Source: Chloroflexota bacterium (lineage in GTDB: Bacteria; Chloroflexota; Ktedonobacteria; Ktedonobacterales; Ktedonobacteraceae). Taken from it: a DNA stretch of 23,955 bases. Every line of letters begins with the position of its first letter. The first letter of the stretch is position 1. A model generated the notes under the pieces. That model did not search any database. It worked only from the letters and a program-made list of their open reading frames with translations, and was not told where the DNA came from. Shown in pieces: positions 3,260 to 19,999 of this stretch. Location: positions 1 to 23,955 of the forward strand of contig VBJK01000121.1 in assembly GCA_005879655.1 (NCBI GenBank), in the 5' to 3' direction. The translations under genes were made by a program, and so were the position numbers.

Positions 3260-3275
3260 AAGCTGTGTACACAAC

Positions 3276-3350
3276 AGAGAAAGGGGATGGGTTACAGTCT
3301 TGATCACAGAACTCCCAAATCATCAAGACTGTGGCCCGCTCTCTTTCTCT
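3276..3350 (+). terminator. Long hairpin downstream of pncB
   Basis: The 29-nt arms 3276-3304 and 3322-3350 enclose a 17-nt loop. In the plus-strand RNA, 28 of 29 positions can pair, five of them as G.U wobbles, with a single A.C mismatch. In the opposite strand those five would be A.C mismatches. The asymmetry supports a role in the pncB transcript, most simply as terminator or 3' stabiliser. No long U-run follows. Confidence 0.65.
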
Positions 3351-3410
3351 ATTTGGAAGAACACCTGCTAATACTACCTCTGTGCGTGGTTCATCACCTT
3401 GTTCGTTACT

Positions 3411-3524
3411 AGTGCATTTTCGCTTGACTCATGAGGATTTGGTGTGTATACTTCCCCTCTGGGGAGGCCGATGAAGCCAATGTCCTTTCCCGACCCGATT
3501 GGGGATTGAAACGGGGATTGAAAC
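3411..3524 (-). repeat. Dispersed repeat, intergenic copy
   Basis: The block 3411-3497 matches 12978-13064 in inverted orientation at 75 of 87 positions without gaps (my count). Similarity continues more loosely through a TTTCAATC segment beyond 3497. The plus strand ends with a 12-bp tandem, GGGGATTGAAAC twice (3501-3512, 3513-3524). That unit resembles the 3' end of many CRISPR repeats, but no spacer-separated copies exist. The other copy is inside a methyltransferase coding sequence. Confidence 0.8.
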
Positions 3525-3558: not shown

Positions 3559-4422
3559 ATGGCAGAAAGTATTACTAAGTCTCTTAATAATTACCCGGAT
3601 AAGACGCTTGAAACGACGGAGATTGGTCAAAACGATAAGCAAAGCACAGATGCAATAGCAGACAAAAAAGTTTTAAAGCCACAATCATCTATTATTTGGA
3701 CGCCACGTTTTATCATCAGATTCTCGTTGACGCTCGTTGTTGCGCTTAGTGCCGCCAGTCTTCTCACACAAGGATGGGAAAACCACTACTATACACCTGA
3801 TCTGGTACTGCTGAGCGAAACTCTCTTAGTCTTGTATGCTTGGGTAGTGACGATATTTCGTGCGCGTGCAACATGGTTACGCATTGGCGCTATTTTTGGA
3901 GGTCTGTGGATGCTTGTCGCAGGGGTAAACGTGGTGATCGATTGGATCACGGGGAACACTGCGGCCAGTACAAACCAGCCTGTTATTGCCTATTTGAATG
4001 CCGCGATGAATATTGCCATGCTGGGTAGCTATATCTGTCTCTCTATCAATCGCACACCGATCCGTCGCTGGGATACCGGCTTCTTTAGCATCGCGCCCAT
4101 TCTTAGTTGCTGTATTGTCGTTATTGCTTATTTTATGATCCCTGCTGATACTCGTTCTCTAACCAGCCTGGAGAGCATTACAGCAGCTATTGCGCTCTAT
4201 CTCAGCATCTTTGTGTGGTGGTTGCGACCATCCTGTTGGCGTACTCAGCCGGGGCCAGCGGTACTGTTCACGATCTCGCCCCTTATCCAGCTGCTACTCT
4301 CGCTTCCGCAAGCCTTCAGTGGAGGGGATAACTTTTTTCTGTTGCAGGTGAGCCTGTTCTTTACGCTCTTTGGTATTATGCGCTGTTTGCAAGGGGATAT
4401 GCGACTGGCGCAAGGACTATAA
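3559..4422 (+). CDS. Polytopic membrane protein of unknown function
   Basis: A 287-residue protein with a polar 45-residue N-terminus and about eight hydrophobic segments (near residues 50-69, 82-101, 107-129, 141-163, 175-196, 203-221, 235-250, 256-276). I recognise no family motif. The short polar loops and lack of conserved charged residues inside helices give no clue to substrate. The ATG at 3559 has a weak AGGA 11 nt upstream and no strong ribosome-binding site. The 3' end overlaps the stop of the convergent kinase remnant by six bases (4417-4422). It is probably real because of its length and consistent membrane topology. Confidence 0.65.
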   Translation: MAESITKSLNNYPDKTLETTEIGQNDKQSTDAIADKKVLKPQSSIIWTPRFIIRFSLTLVVALSAASLLTQGWENHYYTPDLVLLSETLLVLYAWVVTIFRARATWLRIGAIFGGLWMLVAGVNVVIDWITGNTAASTNQPVIAYLNAAMNIAMLGSYICLSINRTPIRRWDTGFFSIAPILSCCIVVIAYFMIPADTRSLTSLESITAAIALYLSIFVWWLRPSCWRTQPGPAVLFTISPLIQLLLSLPQAFSGGDNFFLLQVSLFFTLFGIMRCLQGDMRLAQGL

Positions 4423-5287: not shown

Positions 5288-6139
5288 CTATGCCCGTATG
5301 GCACCGCGCATCACCAAAACAATCAGTAGCGCACTCAGACCATTATTTAACATATGCAGGATGATAGATGGCCAGATAGAGCGCGTACGCCAGCGCAAGA
5401 ACGAGAGGGCTAGACCAATACCAAACAGGACAACGAACGAGCCTACATCCCCATGGGCTAATCCAAAAAGTAAGGCACACCAGAAAATAGCCATAAAGAC
5501 GGACACACCCTTCAATAAGCCTGGCAAGACAAAGCCACGAAAAAAGATCTCCTCGCAAAACGGAGCAACCAGCACAGCTTCTAACAGGATCGCGTAGGTC
5601 GTAAATGGGGTTGCTTTGCTCATCTTGAGGATGAACTGGTCATTGGTCTGCACGTTGAGGTGGAATGCCGTGACCAGTTGAGCATAGGCTATGCTGAGCA
5701 CAAAAATCGCTAGCAAGCAAGCTATGATTAGTGAAGAGACCTGCCGAGCGCTAAAGCTAGTGAAGCCTAATGTACGTAAGGCCAGTTGGAAGCGTTGCCG
5801 CCGTGGATAAGCCTGATAGGGACGAAGCGCATAGTGAAATGGTGCAATGAGAAACGCTCCGTGCACCACTAGAGAAAATATGAAGATCACGATAGCATTC
5901 GCTATATCCTTCCCTGGTGGTAGAGGTGCAGGATTGATAGCACGCCCATTCAGCAGGGATATGGCAAGTGTCAGTACCAGCCAGGGGAGCAGGGTCAAGA
6001 CAAGGCCAGTTTTTGTCTGTTGGATCGTCCAGGGAACGTCGTCAAATCGTTTTTCTTCTTGCACAGGCTTCTGTTCAAACAAGAGTTTCTCCACCCAAAA
6101 AAAACAAAGCAGACCATGTAGATATGCTATAATACGCAC
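5288..6139 (-). CDS. CPBP family (CAAX/Abi) intramembrane metalloprotease
   Basis: A membrane-embedded protease family related to Rce1, and in bacteria often linked to bacteriocin self-immunity or signalling. All three signature motifs are present: EEIFFR (E196, E197, R201), FGLAH (225-229) and HMLNN (262-266), which provide the metal ligands and catalytic glutamate. About seven hydrophobic helices start near residue 45. The GTG at 6139 has no ribosome-binding site. A TTG at 6082 (residue 20) preceded by GGTGGAG is a better start and also lies downstream of a promoter-like pair. The true protein is then about 264 residues. No bacteriocin gene is seen nearby, so its substrate is unknown. Confidence 0.88.
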   Translation of the reverse strand: MRIIAYLHGLLCFFWVEKLLFEQKPVQEEKRFDDVPWTIQQTKTGLVLTLLPWLVLTLAISLLNGRAINPAPLPPGKDIANAIVIFIFSLVVHGAFLIAPFHYALRPYQAYPRRQRFQLALRTLGFTSFSARQVSSLIIACLLAIFVLSIAYAQLVTAFHLNVQTNDQFILKMSKATPFTTYAILLEAVLVAPFCEEIFFRGFVLPGLLKGVSVFMAIFWCALLFGLAHGDVGSFVVLFGIGLALSFLRWRTRSIWPSIILHMLNNGLSALLIVLVMRGAIRA

Positions 6140-6159
6140 AGCACAAAGTGTCTTGTCAA
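6129..6159 (-). promoter_or_regulatory. Sigma70-like promoter for the CPBP protease gene
   Basis: On the minus strand, a perfect TTGACA (6159-6154) precedes TATTAT (6134-6129) with 19 nt between them, slightly longer than ideal. If used, transcription would begin near 6121, downstream of the GTG at 6139. That supports the internal start at 6082. Confidence 0.35.
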
Positions 6160-6427: not shown

Positions 6428-7381
6428 ATGACTACTCGTCCCTATCGTCATGGTATTCCAGAAGAGATTCTGGCCCTCTCTCACGAACGCGATGTCCTAC
6501 GCAGACGTGGTCAGTACGAGCGCGCTGATGTACTCAAAGAACGAATTGAGGCAGCAGGCTACGCTGTCAAAGATAATCCTCATGGTGCACATCTGGTTAT
6601 TTTGCCCAACATTGAGGTTGATGGCAAACTCTATCGTACAACGCGGCATATGCCTTCATTCCTTGATGAAAGCGACGTATATGCATTCTCGGTCAACATC
6701 CTGGCACAGAATACCTGTGAGCAAACACGCCGTTGTATAGAAAGCGTCTTACGTTTTGCGGGCAATACTAGTCTCGAAATCATCCTGGTCGATAATGCTT
6801 CGCAGGATGAGACGGCAGGATGGGCTGAAGTGCTGCAAGCACGAGAGCCACGCTTGCATCTGCTGCGTGCAACGCGTACTATGGGCACCGCTGAAGCGCG
6901 TAATATCGGGTTGAAGCAGAGCCGTGGCGGTTACATTCTGCTGCTTGACTCCGGCGTTGAGCTGACAGGAGATATCTTCACTCCACTAGCACAAACGCTG
7001 GCAAACAAAAAAGTTGGCGTGACCGGGCTTCGTGGTCTGCGTACTAATGATCTACGCCACTTTGAAGAAAGTCAGCAACTCGAAGTTGAGGCTATTGATT
7101 GTCAGTGCATGGCCTTTCGGCGTAAACTGCTGCGGCAAGTGGGCCTGTTTGATGAGCGCTACCGCTATCCAGACTTTATGGATATCGACTTCAACTTCGC
7201 GCTACGCGACAAAGATGCTCAGGCGGTTGTGACACCCGATCTGCCTATCATTTACCATCTTGATATACAGAATACACACCTCTCTGATACCGAGCGTCTG
7301 CGTCTGAACAAACGCAACTTTTACCGCTTCCTCAGTAAATGGGGTGATCGTGACGATCTGCTCTTACAAGACGAGGAATAA
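6428..7381 (+). CDS. Family 2 glycosyltransferase with CysS-like N-terminal segment
   Basis: Residues about 85-300 are a GT-A glycosyltransferase: SVNILAQNTCEQTRRCIESVL, IILVDNASQDET (nucleotide-sugar binding), MGTAEARNIGL and ILLLDSGVEL (DxD-like position), then MDIDFNFALRD toward the acceptor side. Residues 10-58 (EEILALSHERDVLRRRGQYE..AD.LKERIEAAGYAVKDNPHG) match the pattern of the extreme C-terminus of cysteinyl-tRNA synthetase (LI..R..AR...D...AD.IRD.L...G....D.P.GT). This is an unusual fusion. No transmembrane helix is seen, so it is likely a cytoplasmic transferase. The ATG at 6428 follows GAAGGAAGG by about 12 nt. It stands alone, with its own terminator. Donor and acceptor are unknown. 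Confidence 0.85.
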   Translation: MTTRPYRHGIPEEILALSHERDVLRRRGQYERADVLKERIEAAGYAVKDNPHGAHLVILPNIEVDGKLYRTTRHMPSFLDESDVYAFSVNILAQNTCEQTRRCIESVLRFAGNTSLEIILVDNASQDETAGWAEVLQAREPRLHLLRATRTMGTAEARNIGLKQSRGGYILLLDSGVELTGDIFTPLAQTLANKKVGVTGLRGLRTNDLRHFEESQQLEVEAIDCQCMAFRRKLLRQVGLFDERYRYPDFMDIDFNFALRDKDAQAVVTPDLPIIYHLDIQNTHLSDTERLRLNKRNFYRFLSKWGDRDDLLLQDEE

Positions 7382-7462: not shown

Positions 7463-8335
7463 ATGGCCTTTTTAGCACTCCTGAAGAAAGAATTACGGCT
7501 ACGCCTCCGGCGCGAGCGTACGGCCTGGGCCATCATTATCTATGTCGTCTTATTGAGCCTCTTAGGGTGGGTTACGCTCAACCAATTCATAAGAGCTGAT
7601 CCCTACGATCCCGATAACTTCGGCCACGCCGGTCTCTCTCTCTACTACCTGCTTTCGATGGTACAGCTCCTCCTCATTTTACTCATTACGCCAGCGTCTA
7701 CCGCTTCGACTATTAACGGAGAGAAAGAACGACAGACCTTTGATCTACTGCTATGTTCTCAATTGACGCGTTTCTCGCTGGTGGCGGGTAAAATCATCGC
7801 TGGTCTGGCCGATACACTATTGCTAGTGGCGGCCTCGCTGCCAATCTTTAGTTTTGTCTTTTTCTTCGGCGGGGTTTCACCTTTACAAATCCTAGCGGCG
7901 GTGCTGATTTACCTGGCGACGGCCCTCTTAGGGGCAACGGTTGGCATCTTCTGCTCGACCCTCTTCCAACGCCCAACGCCATCTATCATTATCACCTACC
8001 TGGCCGAAGCTATCTGGATCTTTCTGCCGTTCATTCTTGCTTACCTTGGGTTTATCGCCTCTCCACACTACTTTGCTGATCAAAATAGTGCCAAACTCTT
8101 ATTCCTCTGGCATCCTGTGATGGCACTCATTAGTACCTATACACCCAGCAACACCTTTTCCATTACTATAGGGACCATCACTATCGATATATGGATCAGC
8201 TATCTCTTCGTCTCGCTGGTTGCCACAGTGATCTTCTTCATCTTAAGCATGTGGATGGTTAAGCCTAGGCAGGGAAAAAAATTTTATATGCGCCATAAAA
8301 GACAACAAATGCAACAGAATGCAGTGGTGGGCTAA
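7463..8335 (+). CDS. ABC-2 type transporter permease subunit
   Basis: A 290-residue integral membrane protein with six predicted helices. The basic N-terminus LLKKELRLRLRRERTAW leads into helix 1, and the motif PASTASTINGEKERQTFDLLLCSQLT between helices 2 and 3 is diagnostic of ABC-2 permeases (NosY/GldF-like), where the EKE..T..LL helix contacts the ATPase. The ATG at 7463 is preceded by AAGGGA about 10 nt upstream. The cognate ATP-binding subunit, normally adjacent, is not next to it in this window, so substrate and direction cannot be told. It may pair with an ATPase encoded elsewhere. Confidence 0.85.
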   Translation: MAFLALLKKELRLRLRRERTAWAIIIYVVLLSLLGWVTLNQFIRADPYDPDNFGHAGLSLYYLLSMVQLLLILLITPASTASTINGEKERQTFDLLLCSQLTRFSLVAGKIIAGLADTLLLVAASLPIFSFVFFFGGVSPLQILAAVLIYLATALLGATVGIFCSTLFQRPTPSIIITYLAEAIWIFLPFILAYLGFIASPHYFADQNSAKLLFLWHPVMALISTYTPSNTFSITIGTITIDIWISYLFVSLVATVIFFILSMWMVKPRQGKKFYMRHKRQQMQQNAVVG

Positions 8336-8342
8336 CAAACGT

Positions 8343-8377
8343 TTCTCTGTCCCATCTGCCGCAGACGGGACAGAGAA
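8343..8377. terminator. 17-bp hairpin between convergent permease and transketolase genes
   Basis: The arms 8343-8359 and 8361-8377 pair fully except at one position, which is A.C in plus-strand RNA and G.U in minus-strand RNA. It lies 7 nt after the permease stop and 38 nt after the transketolase stop, and could serve either gene. Confidence 0.65.
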
Positions 8378-8415
8378 GTGTTCGTTAACGTATTGAGAAG
8401 AATGCTTATTGCTGA

Positions 8416-10528: not shown

Positions 10529-13500
10529 ATGATAAGCACCAACGACGTACGTGGAAAAAAGCGTCGGAGATGGGAAGATGAGATATGCATGACAACGGAT
10601 AAGCATATATCCGAAAAAACTAAACAAACGTTCGCTATTGAAAAAGTCACGAAAAAATTCTATGAACTCTTTAAAAAAGAACGTGCACGTTTTTTTACCT
10701 TGATCCAGGGCATCTCCAAGGTCAGCGATTGTGAATGGTATACATCTTTGATGCTCAACCGTCTCATGTTTATCTATTTCATACAGCGTCAGGGCTTCCT
10801 CAATACGAAAACGCTAGCCGCGCTGGATGGCGACATTCACTATCTACGCCGTCGCCTCAAGAAAATACAAGAGCAATATGGATATGATAACTTCTACCGC
10901 TCTTTCCTGCTGCACCTGTTCCAGCAAGGACTGGGTAAACGTGAACGTACACCCGAACTTGAGCACTTGCTAGGCAACGTTCCCTATCTGAACGGGAGTC
11001 TTTTCGATCAGCATACTCTGGAACAGAGATATCCGCACATCCAGATTCCAGATGCAGCATTTGAGCATATTTTCAATTTTTTCGATAGTTTCGACTGGTA
11101 TCTGGATGATCGTGCACTGAGCAAGGGGCATGAGATCAATCCTGATGTGCTTGGGTATATCTTTGAAAAGTATATTAATCAGAAGCAGATGGGAGCATAC
11201 TATACCAGGGAGGATATTACCGCCTATATCAGTAAGAATGCTATGCTCCCTTATGTGTTCGAGGCCGTAGCACAAGCATGCCCATCCGCTTTTCTGCCGG
11301 ATGGTCCGATTTGGTCATTGCTACGTGACCATCCAGATGACTATTTCTACGAAGCAGTGCTCAAAGGAGTTGAGTTAGCTCTGCCGCCAGAGGTCGAGGT
11401 GGGCATCAGCGATGTCTCCAGGCGTACAGAGTGGAACAAGCCAGCTCCCGCCGCGTATGCGCTACCAACCGAAATATGGCGCGAGGTGGTCGCACGTCGT
11501 CAGCGCTATCAAGAGGTGCGAGCAAAGATGGTAGCAGGCCAGATTACTTCGATTAACGATCTCATCACCTACAATCTCGCTCTTTGTCGGTTTGCCCACG
11601 ATGTGATTGTCTCTTGCGCTGGACCAGAGTTGCTGCTGGCCTTCTACGAAAGCATTGAGCAGATGACGATCCTCGATCCTACCTGCGGTTCCGGGGCCTT
11701 TCTCTTTGCCGCTCTCAACATCCTCAAGCCACTCTATGAAGCTTGCTTGGTGCGTATGCAAGCGCTGGTAGAGGAGTATGATCGCCTCGACGCTGGCCTC
11801 TTGGGGCAGGGATGGCCAACATCTGCTGCTATTGAGCGTTTGCGTCATATCTTGCAACGTGTAGCACAACACCAGAGTCGGGGTTACTTTATCCTCAAGT
11901 CTATCATGCTTAACAACCTGTACGGCGTTGATCTCATGCCAGAGGCCGTCGAAATCTGCAAATTGCGTCTCTTTCTCAAACTCATTGCGCAGATCACAAA
12001 AGTAGAGGATATTGAGCCGCTCCCTGATATTGACTTCAACATTCGTGCTGGCAATACACTCATTGGTTTTGCTAGCATGGAAGAGTTGCGTGAAGCTGTC
12101 CAGAAAGGGTTGAGTGGCATGATGTCTTCATCGGAGGTGTTGTGCTGCATCGAGTGCAAAATGAAAGATAGCGAGCAGGATGTTGACCACTTCTATGCAT
12201 TGCAAACCAATCTTACTCTCAATCATGAAGATTTGGCGACTGCAAAACAACGACTGCGGGTCCAGTTGGATGACTTATGCAATGAGCTTGACCCATTGCT
12301 GGCTGCTGAGTATGGGATTGATCGCAATCTTATCGAGTCAAAAGAAGAGTATGATGAGCGGTATGCTGAGTGGCGCGCAAGCCATCAGCCGTTTCACTGG
12401 TATGTGGAGTTCTATAAGATTATGGGGCAGGGTGGCTTCTCTGTGATTATTGGCAATCCTCCCTATGTAGAGTATAGAAATGTGAGGAAACAATATAAGG
12501 TCCTGAGATATGAGAAGGAGAGTTGTGGTAATCTCTATGCTGCGCTAATCGAACGTTCCCTAGCGCTCTGTCCTGCTGGACAGAGCTATCTCGGTATGAT
12601 TGTGCCTTTGAGCATCTGCGCAGGAACACGTTTTGCACAATTGCGTAACATGATCAAAGTCAAGACGGAGCACCTGCATCTGGCAAATTTTGAGATCTTC
12701 CCCAGTCGTCTCTTTGAGGATGCCTTTCAAAGGCTTACTATTTTACTGGCTAAACATAGCGTCTCAACAGGGCACCCACAAGGGATGCCCCTACAATGGT
12801 ACGAATCGGGTTGCGAGGTGTGTTCATACCATTGTAGGGGCATCCCTTGTGGGTGCCCTGCGGGGTGGGGTGGGGTGGTGGGGTGGTGGGGCTTACATGT
12901 CACCAAGGTGCAACGGTGGTATGCGCAAGAGCGTCCACACTTGATTGAGCTGACAACCTATTTTCAATCTCCTCAAACGGGTCGCGAAAGGACATTGGTT
13001 CCCGCTACCTCCCCCGAGGGAAAGTGTACACACCAAATCCTCATGAGTCAAGTGGAAATGCACTATACTACGGAGGCATGTGGTATGAAGTCGAACGTTT
13101 TCCCGAAACTGGCCTCTGCTCTGCAAGAGATTATTCTGTGCAAAGTGGCAGCGAAATCCAGGGGAGGGTGCCTGGGTGATATACTATGCCCAGGCAAAAC
13201 GGCGCACTTTGTCTATTGTCAGGAGGCAACAAACTACTGGGTGAAAGCCACCTGCCGTATCCCTTTTTATAAAAAAAATGGCATCGTGATGGAACCTGCA
13301 CATGGCAGATTTCTTTATTTCAATGACGAACGTATGGCGCATACCGTTATGGCACTGATGAATAGTTCACTCTTCTACGTATGGTTTGCAACCTACTCTG
13401 ATGGTTTCCACCTTTCGCATACGCTGGTCAAGGATTTTCCATATATGTCGCATAGTTTGCTGCGGGGGAGTGATCTGGCTCTCATTGATGAACTTCCTCA

Positions 13501-13783
13501 ACTGGCAACTTGCCTGGAAGCAGCTATCAAGCTTCATGCCAGATTGAGCACACGTAACACCAGGTTGGAGAACAAACTCAGCGGAGAAGGGTACATGATT
13601 GAGCTGGAAGAGTACCGCATGACTGAGACTAAGCCGCTTATTGATGACATTGATAGATTACTGGCACAATACTATGGCTTCACTGATAAAGAACTAGACT
13701 TCATCATCAACTACGATATCAAGTATCGTATGGATGCGATAATAGAGAGGAGAATGAGGAATAATGCCATGCATCTTCGATAA
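10529..13783 (+). CDS. Eco57I-type DNA adenine-N6 methyltransferase (possible type IIG-like) with in-frame repeat insertions
   Basis: A SAM-dependent DNA methyltransferase of 1084 residues. The N-terminal helical region contains FYELFKKERARFF, LMLNRLMFIYFIQRQGFL and DVLGYIFEKYINQKQMGAYYTREDITAYI. Motif I is DPTCGSGAFLF at residue 383 and catalytic motif IV is NPPY at 643; the C-terminus ends PLIDDIDRLLAQYYGFTDKELDFII. No PD-(D/E)XK nuclease site was found by eye. Compared with the neighbouring paralog, two extra blocks occur after motif IV: residues 747-788 (palindromic element plus G-rich run) and about 811-846 (dispersed repeat), both keeping frame. Whether the enzyme still works is unknown. 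The start may be ATG 10529 (GAGG upstream) or ATG 10589, whose length matches the paralog better. Confidence 0.85.
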   Translation: MISTNDVRGKKRRRWEDEICMTTDKHISEKTKQTFAIEKVTKKFYELFKKERARFFTLIQGISKVSDCEWYTSLMLNRLMFIYFIQRQGFLNTKTLAALDGDIHYLRRRLKKIQEQYGYDNFYRSFLLHLFQQGLGKRERTPELEHLLGNVPYLNGSLFDQHTLEQRYPHIQIPDAAFEHIFNFFDSFDWYLDDRALSKGHEINPDVLGYIFEKYINQKQMGAYYTREDITAYISKNAMLPYVFEAVAQACPSAFLPDGPIWSLLRDHPDDYFYEAVLKGVELALPPEVEVGISDVSRRTEWNKPAPAAYALPTEIWREVVARRQRYQEVRAKMVAGQITSINDLITYNLALCRFAHDVIVSCAGPELLLAFYESIEQMTILDPTCGSGAFLFAALNILKPLYEACLVRMQALVEEYDRLDAGLLGQGWPTSAAIERLRHILQRVAQHQSRGYFILKSIMLNNLYGVDLMPEAVEICKLRLFLKLIAQITKVEDIEPLPDIDFNIRAGNTLIGFASMEELREAVQKGLSGMMSSSEVLCCIECKMKDSEQDVDHFYALQTNLTLNHEDLATAKQRLRVQLDDLCNELDPLLAAEYGIDRNLIESKEEYDERYAEWRASHQPFHWYVEFYKIMGQGGFSVIIGNPPYVEYRNVRKQYKVLRYEKESCGNLYAALIERSLALCPAGQSYLGMIVPLSICAGTRFAQLRNMIKVKTEHLHLANFEIFPSRLFEDAFQRLTILLAKHSVSTGHPQGMPLQWYESGCEVCSYHCRGIPCGCPAGWGGVVGWWGLHVTKVQRWYAQERPHLIELTTYFQSPQTGRERTLVPATSPEGKCTHQILMSQVEMHYTTEACGMKSNVFPKLASALQEIILCKVAAKSRGGCLGDILCPGKTAHFVYCQEATNYWVKATCRIPFYKKNGIVMEPAHGRFLYFNDERMAHTVMALMNSSLFYVWFATYSDGFHLSHTLVKDFPYMSHSLLRGSDLALIDELPQLATCLEAAIKLHARLSTRNTRLENKLSGEGYMIELEEYRMTETKPLIDDIDRLLAQYYGFTDKELDFIINYDIKYRMDAIIERRMRNNAMHLR
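12768..12860. repeat. 93-bp palindromic (MITE-like) element inside coding sequence
   Basis: Perfect 34-bp inverted arms, 12768-12801 and 12827-12860, enclose a 25-nt centre. The length of 93 is exactly 31 codons, so the frame is preserved. The outer sequence GGGCACCCACAAGGGATGCC has the style of GC-rich palindromic intergenic repeats seen in Chloroflexi and cyanobacteria (recollection, not searched). It encodes cysteine- and glycine-rich residues absent from the paralog. Confidence 0.8.
12862..12891 (+). other. G-quadruplex-like run
   Basis: Five GGGG tracts separated by T, T, TGGT and TGGT directly follow the palindromic element, on the coding strand. This fits the G-quadruplex consensus in both DNA and mRNA. 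Confidence 0.6.
12961..13064 (+). repeat. Dispersed repeat, in-frame copy inside the methyltransferase gene
   Basis: The core 12978-13064 is the inverted counterpart of 3411-3497 (75 of 87 identical). The TTTCAATC preceding it is also shared, with a 2-nt length difference between. It adds roughly 30 residues compared with the paralog, between LTTYFQS and KSNVFPKL. Confidence 0.8.
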
Positions 13784-13840: not shown

Positions 13841-16345
13841 GTGTCATTTGCAACAGAAAATGTATCGTTTGCTATCGAACGCATCACGGTGCGCTTCTAC
13901 ACTGGCTTCAAGCGTGAGCGAGCCGCATTTATCACAGCCATTGAAGGCATCAGTAATAGTGATGAACGGGAGAGATACGCATCACTGTTGCTACACCGCT
14001 TCATGTTCCTCTATTTTCTCCAGCACAAAGGCTTTCTGGATGGCGACAAACATTATCTCAGCAATAAACTCTGGCAGATGCAGGAACAACACGGCCCCAA
14101 TCTGTTCTATCATCATTTCCTGCTCCTGCTCTTTCATCAGGGATTGAGTAGCCCTGCACGTACACCCCATCAGCTAGCCCTACTGGGCAATGTTCCTTAT
14201 GTGGATGGCGACCTGTTCTCCATACACACCATAGAGCAGAATAATCCACACCTGAACATCCCTGACCAAGTATTTAGCAACCTCTTGCATTTTTTCGGCA
14301 CATACTCCTGGAGCTTGCACAGTAGTGCGACACGCGCCAAAAACGAGATCACCCCGGACATCCTGGGTTACATTTTTGAAAAATACGTGAACCAGCAACA
14401 AATGGGAGCCTACTATACAAAAGAGGATGTCACTGAGTACATTGCCAAAAATACCATCATTCCCTACCTGTTCGACCGCGTTGCACAACGCTGCCCACAA
14501 GCATTCCAACAGCAGGGGGCAATCTGGAGCCTTCTCCAGGCCGACCCGGACCGCTATATCTATACAGCAGTGCGCCAGCTCGATTATCTTTCACATGAAA
14601 CGCGTAGTGAATATAGAGTCCGCCGACATTATTATACAAATCTGCGAGTGAAATTGCTCTCTGGTCATATTCACAGCATCGATGATGTGATCACCTATAA
14701 TCTTGATATCTGCCGTTTCGCGCAAGATGTCATCAATAGTCTTAGCTCAATTGAACTGGCGCGGACCTTCTATGAGGAGCTGCAACAGATCACGGTGCTT
14801 GATCCCACCTGTGGTTCTGGAGCATTTCTGTTCGCCGCCCTCAATATTCTCGAACCGCTCTATAGGACCTGTCTTGCACGCATAGACGGCTACGCGGCGC
14901 AAGAAACAGGTGGCAGGGAGCAAGCCCATCGTCGCTACCACTTGCTCAAATCGATCATTGTAAGTAACCTCTACGGTGTCGATATCATGGAGGAAGCCAT
15001 TGAGATCTGCAAATTGCGCTTCTTGCTCAAACTGGTGACTGAGATTGATAGTGTGCATGATTTAGAGTTATTGCCAGCTATTGGATGTAACATCCATGTG
15101 GGCAATGCCTTGATTGGTTCCATTGTGCCTATACAATCAGCCATCGTCGAGAAAGATCAGCAGTTTGCCATGGAGGGGCAACTTCATCGCAGACTGGCGG
15201 TCTCCTACGGTATTGACATCACAGATGCTCAGGCATATGCAACTTGGTTAGTGCGACATAAACCATTCCACTGGTCCATACACTACGCTACGATTATCAA
15301 TAAGGGGGGCTTCAGTGTGATTATTGGTAATCCACCATATGTCGAGTACAAGCCCCAGGCGTTTCCTTACCAATTGCACGAGTTTACCACGCTCTCGTGT
15401 TCTAATCTTTACCCCTACGTGATTGAGCGCAGTCGTCAACTGCTGGCCCGTGATGGTCGTCATGGCATGATCCTGCCATTGGCTGCATTTGCCACCAGAA
15501 ATATGTTGCCATTGCTGGCAAGCTTTCAGCGCTGGTTTCCTACTAGCTGGCAGTCTTTTTATCACTTTCGTCCTTCGATGCTCTTCTCCGGTGGGAAAGT
15601 GGCCAGTATACCGACCGCTATCTATCTAGCCAAAGCAACAGGACCAGAGCGGCGTTTCAGCACGCACATCAACAAATGGTTCTCGGAGCAGCGTCATCTG
15701 CTCTTTCCTACACTGAAGTATTGTGAGATCACCATAGCCAGTGATAACCTGAATCTTCATTACTTCCCCAAATTTGGCCATGTGATTGAAAACTCTATTA
15801 TGGAGAAAGTCAGGTGTCATGAGCCAGTTGTCCGTTACCTAGCGCAGACAACAAATCATAATACGATGTATTACCGCTCAGCGGGAGGACTCTATTGGAA
15901 AGTTTTCACCAATTTTCCATGGCCCTATCATACTACGTCAAATAAACAGTGTTCATTTCACACAACTTATCAACGCGATGTGTTTGTTGCATTGTTTAAT
16001 AGCTCACTCTTCTGGTGGTATTATACCGTCACTTTTGATACATTTAACCTGAAAGACTATATGTTATTTGGCTTTCGTTATACATATCCTGACGATCAAA
16101 GTATAGTGAATGCATTAGCAGCGCTATGTAATACTCTCATGAACGACTTTTATGCTCATGCCAGACATCTCACGCGTGGTCGAACGGGAAGTTATACCAT
16201 CTATGCGAAAAAGTCTAAAGCCATAATTGACGAGATTGATGATGTGTTGGCTTATCACTATGGGTTAAATGACGAAGAACTGGACTTTATTGTCCACTAT
16301 GACATAAAGTATCGTTTAGGACTGACCCACACAATGCATCATTGA
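13841..16345 (+). CDS. Eco57I-type DNA adenine-N6 methyltransferase, second paralog
   Basis: An 834-residue paralog of the preceding gene, 57 nt downstream, almost certainly from tandem duplication followed by divergence. The same layout is visible: FYTGFKRERAAFI, LLLHRFMFLYFLQHKGFLDGD, DILGYIFEKYVNQQQMGAYYTKEDVTEYI, motif I DPTCGSGAFLF at residue 321, motif IV NPPYVEY at 497, and C-terminal IIDEIDDVLAYHYGLNDEELDFIVHYDIKYR. The region after motif IV (about 520-780) differs strongly from the first copy, as expected for a target-recognition domain with different specificity. It lacks the repeat insertions. The GTG start at 13841 has AGGAG about 12 nt upstream. No specificity subunit or separate restriction gene is adjacent, so it may be an orphan methylase or a type IIG enzyme with an unseen nuclease. 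Confidence 0.87.
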   Translation: MSFATENVSFAIERITVRFYTGFKRERAAFITAIEGISNSDERERYASLLLHRFMFLYFLQHKGFLDGDKHYLSNKLWQMQEQHGPNLFYHHFLLLLFHQGLSSPARTPHQLALLGNVPYVDGDLFSIHTIEQNNPHLNIPDQVFSNLLHFFGTYSWSLHSSATRAKNEITPDILGYIFEKYVNQQQMGAYYTKEDVTEYIAKNTIIPYLFDRVAQRCPQAFQQQGAIWSLLQADPDRYIYTAVRQLDYLSHETRSEYRVRRHYYTNLRVKLLSGHIHSIDDVITYNLDICRFAQDVINSLSSIELARTFYEELQQITVLDPTCGSGAFLFAALNILEPLYRTCLARIDGYAAQETGGREQAHRRYHLLKSIIVSNLYGVDIMEEAIEICKLRFLLKLVTEIDSVHDLELLPAIGCNIHVGNALIGSIVPIQSAIVEKDQQFAMEGQLHRRLAVSYGIDITDAQAYATWLVRHKPFHWSIHYATIINKGGFSVIIGNPPYVEYKPQAFPYQLHEFTTLSCSNLYPYVIERSRQLLARDGRHGMILPLAAFATRNMLPLLASFQRWFPTSWQSFYHFRPSMLFSGGKVASIPTAIYLAKATGPERRFSTHINKWFSEQRHLLFPTLKYCEITIASDNLNLHYFPKFGHVIENSIMEKVRCHEPVVRYLAQTTNHNTMYYRSAGGLYWKVFTNFPWPYHTTSNKQCSFHTTYQRDVFVALFNSSLFWWYYTVTFDTFNLKDYMLFGFRYTYPDDQSIVNALAALCNTLMNDFYAHARHLTRGRTGSYTIYAKKSKAIIDEIDDVLAYHYGLNDEELDFIVHYDIKYRLGLTHTMHH

Positions 16346-19915: not shown

Positions 19916-19999
19916 TAGCCGAACAGCGAAGAATAGATAAAGTTGCCAGAGTAGTGTTACCCACTCTGGCAACTTTATCTATTCTTCGCTGTTCGGCTA
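19916..19999 (-). terminator. Perfect 37-bp inverted repeat after the GH15 gene
   Basis: The arms 19916-19952 and 19963-19999 are exact reverse complements with a 10-nt loop. On the minus strand it begins 12 nt after the GH15 stop and ends 55 nt before the rlmI start, so it fits a terminator or RNA stabiliser for GH15. There is no distinct U-run. Confidence 0.7.

Follow-up and report, generated by a model that had tools for sequence, protein, structure and literature searches.

A DNA methyltransferase gene of a Chloroflexota bacterium carries, in frame, a 93-nt palindrome that is very probably a non-autonomous GTAG REP doublet (REPIN-like, of the RAYT kind). The insertion would be fairly recent and would lie in a loop of the enzyme that tolerates differences in length, where the element is most likely a near-neutral passenger. 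This reading draws on the sequence of the element, its frame, its absence from aligned homologues, its family resemblance to copies in relatives and one REP-flanked RAYT in one of these relatives. The window, that is, the whole stretch of DNA analysed here (23,955 nucleotides), and two loci of a related genome, G023, hold the following features.

10529 to 13783, plus strand: host gene, an Eco57I/MmeI-type DNA methyltransferase of 1084 aa (PADLOC REase_MTase_IIG PDLC03628), with the motifs DPTCGSGAF and NPPY
12768 to 12860, no strand assigned: palindromic element, a tail-to-tail GTAG REP doublet (REPIN-like) of 93 nt, 31 codons, in frame
12768 to 12794, minus strand: left REP unit, with the GTAG tag at its inner end (12794 to 12791) and a core match at 12770 to 12794, minus strand, without mismatches
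12834 to 12860, plus strand: right REP unit, with the GTAG tag at 12834 to 12837 and a core match at 12834 to 12858, plus strand, without mismatches
12861 to 12892, plus strand: G-rich, GGGGTGG-like tract directly 3' of the palindrome, encoding AGWGGVVGWWG
12962 to 13066, plus strand: second insertion, a MITE-like dispersed repeat of about 101 bp plus 4 nt (105 nt, 35 codons), with CTAT at 12958 to 12961 and 13063 to 13066
3410 to 3511, minus strand: a further copy of the 101-bp repeat, intergenic (85.6 bits with the R1 model, in whose seed this copy was included)
13841 to 16345, plus strand: paralogous methyltransferase in tandem, with neither insertion
G023, L081, 859 to 2781, minus strand: eCIS_core (DUF4157) protein, an ORF of 641 aa adjoining a CIS tube gene
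G023:C13, L215 (the same as L234), 1018 to 1521: RAYT ORF of 167 aa, matching Y1_Tnp at 29.9 bits (cut-off 23)

The outer 34 base pairs of the palindrome are perfect; with the arms extended to 38 nt the match is 97% around a 17-nt spacer. The host ORF reads through the 93 nt without a frame break. The sequence-only reading had described a mobile palindrome of 93 bp, with perfect arms of 34 bp, inserted in frame as 31 codons, and both its coordinates and the open frame are exact. Read outward from the inner GTAG, both arms give GTAGGGGCATCCCTTGTGGGTGCCC. Each arm shows the hallmark of a GTAG REP, a tag at one end of a short stem-loop (the stem, judged by eye, is imperfect, with one bulge), and the two together show that of a REPIN, an inverted REP doublet forming one hairpin. 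In the REPINs of Pseudomonas fluorescens SBW25 the tags point outward, unlike the GTAG tags of the window element, which point inward. At up to three mismatches the 25-nt REP core matches the window twice, once per arm, and nowhere outside both arms; 100 dinucleotide shuffles gave zero matches. An Rfam search returned 12 matches, every one under the gathering score. The window has other hairpins, located between ORFs or at their ends, at 701 to 777, 19916 to 19999, 8333 to 8387 and 3273 to 3353, with arms of 27 to 37 nt; two are perfect and two 78-85% complementary, and none of the four matches the REP core.

The G-rich tract that follows the palindrome probably lies outside the element, as a separate local expansion or a native linker. 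Its peptide is found in none of the 23 other rows of alignment A1, and the tract adjoins none of the six other element copies examined.

The host protein matches Pfam Eco57I (91.8 bits) and the PADLOC type IIG model PDLC03628 (863.6 bits) and has the catalytic motifs, as expected of the Eco57I-type/IIG class. An identical protein (P0001, source ENA; 100% over 1084 aa) is present in the protein database. AlphaFold predicts the fold with a mean pLDDT of 84.1 and a pTM of 0.87 (119-row alignment), and the best Foldseek matches of the model are BrxX/PglX methyltransferases, with modest TM scores of 0.36-0.37 for the best four.

We scored 8000 relatives of this protein, listed the best 120 and aligned 118, without P0001, which is identical, and P0064, which is over-long (1432 aa). 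The 31-codon block is absent from all 118, and it is likewise missing from the tandem paralogue, as had been claimed from the sequence alone. Between the strands at residues 736-743 and 788-795 the window protein has a linker of 46 aa as against 5-15 aa in the 118 aligned homologues (of the best 120 of 8000). None of these has a longer native sequence here, the point on which a check of orthologues had been proposed, and removal of the 93 nt leaves 15 aa, the top of the homologue range. The insert adjoins the presumed target-recognition part, where it had been placed before. Three homologous methyltransferases (P0017, P0091 and P0112) have other foreign-looking inserts, some of which resemble translated palindromes at the protein level.

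About 100 bases past the palindrome lies the second insertion, a repeat unrelated to the REP element, so that the gene holds two unrelated mobile insertions within 299 bp, both in frame. The segment measures 41 aa in the window protein and 3-12 aa in the 118 aligned homologues; with the insertion taken out, the flanks join as ELTTYTTEACGMKSNVFPKL, similar to LIAYTTALGMIKPAVFPKL in P0026. The copy at 3410 to 3511, just upstream of the ORF at 3559 to 4422, is 85% identical to the one in the methyltransferase over 96 nt, in inverted orientation. The pattern of the first 31 nt occurs in 6 of the 47 genomes of the order (13 matches in genome G028), and the repeat shows the dispersed copies and fixed ends of a MITE: the model gives 25 matches across the window and 21 loci taken from that pattern, a few of them to the left end only. 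CTAA or CTAG precedes 9 of 21 other copies. As for a possible target-site duplication, identical flanking 4-mers were found in 3 of 15 other copies, a count to be read against a shuffle mean of 1.38, with 13% of shuffles reaching 3. At L265, L279 and L281 the repeat has beside it short stretches that partly duplicate its first 14 nt or so, and its reverse strand has, by eye, a promoter-like pair, TTGACT-17-TATACT. We also considered a CRISPR, as the first 30 nt are CRISPR-repeat-like, and rejected it: the 13 matches in G028 lie on 13 contigs, with no array in the stretches examined. As to a parent IS, no transposase ORF was recognised by eye at the left-end matches L267, L269 and L271, and six forms of the repeat, folded as single-stranded DNA, showed no consistent structure (z between -2.43 and 0.73). 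To our knowledge the repeat is not one of the named families ERIC, YPAL or Correia. In its outcome the second insertion is like the in-frame fusions of the MITE-like ERIC, Yersinia YPAL and Correia elements described in passages of PMC2229807.

Two foreign insertions so close together could mean that the methyltransferase is decaying, with selection lost, insertions accumulating and the frame left open by luck. The unaffected paralogue next door would fit such decay, and so would the lack, in both window methyltransferases (10529 and 13841), of the N-terminal domain present in most rows of alignment A1. That domain, however, is also missing in other homologues, P0002 and P0003 among them; all 1084 codons are open, the catalytic motifs are in place, and both insertions (31 and 35 codons) keep the frame. 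We regard decay as unlikely, though as the likeliest of the alternatives.

We searched for relatives of the element in the order to which Dictyobacter arantiisoli (genome G001) belongs, taken here to be Ktedonobacterales and represented by 47 genomes; the class of G001 comprises the same 47. Element-related DNA was found in 8 of them at E of 0.001 or less. G047 has the closest copies, and full-length copies in G047 and G023 share the architecture of the window element and closely resemble its inner sequence. In G005, G006 and G028 most matches are single REP units of 26-33 nt. For G023 a peptide search listed 75 places, counted by hand, with 10 left out, at least 7 of these at contig ends; the set used covers 63 loci and 76 places, or 70 once six duplicates are removed, fragments being counted. 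By ORF length and by eye, 68 of the 70 have no convincing gene, and only two fall inside a credible one. The many dispersed, mostly intergenic copies typical of GTAG REPs are thus present in relatives. We set aside as spurious, by eye, ORFs lying over G023 copies in L196, L198, L208, L161, L199 and L152.

Both genic G023 places are in the eCIS_core gene, whose ORF translates, in frame, one full REP doublet with 34-nt perfect arms and one half copy, so that the proposed search for other genic copies with the frame kept did turn up one such gene. The tandem peptide repeats MQGER and MAQPATG stand beside the doublets in this ORF. The element is read in its third frame in the window methyltransferase and in its first frame in the eCIS gene; since the frames differ, no conserved peptide is added.

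That an in-frame coding palindrome occurs in two unrelated genes of two genomes recalls the Rickettsia palindromic elements (RPEs), and a coding element of that sort, spreading specifically inside genes, would be an alternative to the passenger. Passages of PMC10969869 and PMC2229807 describe RPEs as about 150 bp long, with a conserved encoded peptide, and genic in nearly half of cases; those of the R. conorii type have a CGTC tag according to parts of PMC3733652. The parallel, drawn before in the sequence-only reading, holds for the outcome, a palindrome inserted in frame in a coding gene. It does not extend to the element: the tag is GTAG, not CGTC, no peptide is conserved in one frame, the two hosts use different frames, and a credible gene was found at 2 of 70 G023 places. 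We consider an RPE-like element extremely improbable. The GTAG doublet, the related copies and the REP-flanked RAYT of G023 argue for a passenger of the REP/RAYT type and not for a relative of the RPEs.

The age of the insertion can be judged from the arms. We picked 34 G023 copies as full-length; in these the longest perfect arm without gaps measures 15 nt at the median, and the single copy that reaches 34 nt is the genic one in the eCIS gene; three G047 copies have perfect arms of 16, 24 and 19 nt. The two complete genic copies, in the window and in the eCIS gene, are thus the best-preserved palindromes of those compared, which lends some support to the earlier suggestion of a recent insertion. 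With n of 2, this fits genic copies being young insertions that selection has yet to remove.

Y1_Tnp matches occur in all six relatives searched, 32 in total, and the loci of 30 were scanned for REPs. One of the 30, in G023, is flanked by this REP family: REPs lie on both sides of the RAYT ORF of L215, at 503 to 591, 830 to 893, 1583 to 1607, 1659 to 1683 and 1731 to 1755, the nearest ending about 124 bp upstream of the start codon and beginning about 50-60 bp past the stop. The other 29 loci have no such REPs at up to three substitutions within the stretches scanned. Despite its having the closest element copies, none of the 12 scanned loci in G047 (of 14 matches) carries these REPs. These two counts and the G-rich tract are points against the REP-doublet reading. 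The RAYT link seen in this one relative would, by extension, apply to the window, and a RAYT would be what mobilises the doublet.

In other methyltransferases of the family we scanned the best 80 of 324 stretches, which give 79 loci and 79 methyltransferase ORFs (259,242 bases), for REP-type palindromes, defined as perfect arms of at least 9, a loop of at most 8 and the presence of GGGGC or GCCCC. Such palindromes lie in frame in 3 of the 79 (L013, L031 twice and L050) and in none of 176 neighbouring ORFs of at least 300 codons (380,925 bases), a contrast that is a lead only, because the criterion was fixed after the first hits had been seen. The record titles describe L031 and L050 as MAGs, of Chloroflexi and Nitrospira respectively, and L013 as an unclassified bacterium. 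The L013 palindrome encodes VGAGLKPAPT; the L031 gene has three different in-frame palindromes, at 5644 to 5669, 6127 to 6159 and 6684 to 6704, two of them REP-type and one of another sequence. L021 also has a palindrome with GGGGC or GCCCC and was set aside as native-looking; a further repeat insert, missed by this motif, may be present in L059 (SPLPPGEG). When the motif is dropped, 22 palindromes compare with 9 in a non-reversed control (arm 9, loop 8), so many are due to chance or native; with arm 10 and loop 10 the two counts are 17 and 1, and with arm 8 and loop 6 they are 47 and 28. Hits at GYIFEKYI, PDIDFN.R and LFFEGFAKKE are native conserved motifs and were excluded from the count.

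The 3 of 79 (best 80 of 324 stretches) against 0 of 176 also speak for an adaptive insert, a new loop or mRNA hairpin that would alter methylation specificity, activity or the expression of the gene and its downstream paralogue. The element does sit between the catalytic core and the presumed target-recognition part, and its RNA hairpin is predicted to be very stable (-76.6 kcal/mol). The insert sites, however, vary among family members (L013 and, for its first insert, L031 have theirs a long way upstream of the target-recognition part), the peptides are unrelated, and the numbers are small, come from a criterion chosen after the hits and, at arm 9 without the motif, include many hits of chance or native origin. 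We consider adaptation improbable. We give equally little credence to the idea that in-frame mobile palindromes repeatedly land, or are tolerated, in IIG/PglX-like methyltransferases of several bacterial lineages, with variation in loop length aiding the diversification of such defence enzymes.

We favour near-neutrality of the REP doublet over altered specificity, because in the AlphaFold model the fold is well predicted and both inserts form loops of low confidence. pLDDT falls below 50 at residues 750-773, 777-784 and 811-842, and also towards both termini (1-12, 15-28 and 1079-1084); the model is consistent with surface loops, and low pLDDT, expected where no other alignment row has the inserts, is weak evidence of disorder. 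In the sequence of events that we propose, a RAYT (TnpA_REP), a single-strand transposase thought to copy such doublets, would have mobilised the element, which would have landed in a loop that joins the catalytic domain to the target-recognition part and tolerates differences in length. The ORF survived because the insert is 31 codons long and has no stop in the frame used. The insert would now encode a 31-residue loop, probably disordered, and the element, kept because it did no fatal harm, would persist as a near-neutral passenger, with a probably small effect on the enzyme.

Its kind is already known from published work. Di Nocera et al. 2013 (PMC3733652), in the parts that concern us, report GTAG REPs in Chloroflexi, define the TT dimer as having GTAG inside and describe intragenic dimers that encode, in frame, 20-30 aa. 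The window element shares with these the tag, the TT arrangement, the in-frame genic site, the approximate length of the encoded segment and a phylum, Chloroflexi, among those of that paper; it differs in its Ktedonobacteria-looking host lineage and DNA methyltransferase host gene. The words methyltransferase, methylase and restriction are absent from the main text of that paper. Passages of Bertels and Rainey 2011 (PMC3116915) define REPINs in P. fluorescens SBW25, where 14 of 1,067 occurrences of the most abundant 16-mers overlap genes; with those REPINs and RAYTs our element has in common the inverted doublet, one predicted hairpin and a mostly extragenic location, here with a RAYT nearby in a relative. 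A full-text literature search, by titles and the starts of abstracts, brought up no paper evidently on REP palindromes in frame in a methyltransferase, and others may exist. The second, unrelated in-frame repeat and the in-frame palindromes in a few family methyltransferases of other lineages come in addition to this precedent.

Overall, a known process, ordinary in kind, is seen here in good resolution. Both empty sites can be read, and the case shows cleanly how small mobile repeats can enter a conserved enzyme without destroying it. Coding REP doublets also gain a host gene of a defence type, a methyltransferase. A bias towards the family, if true, would link the mobility of repeats to the diversification of restriction and BREX-like enzymes.
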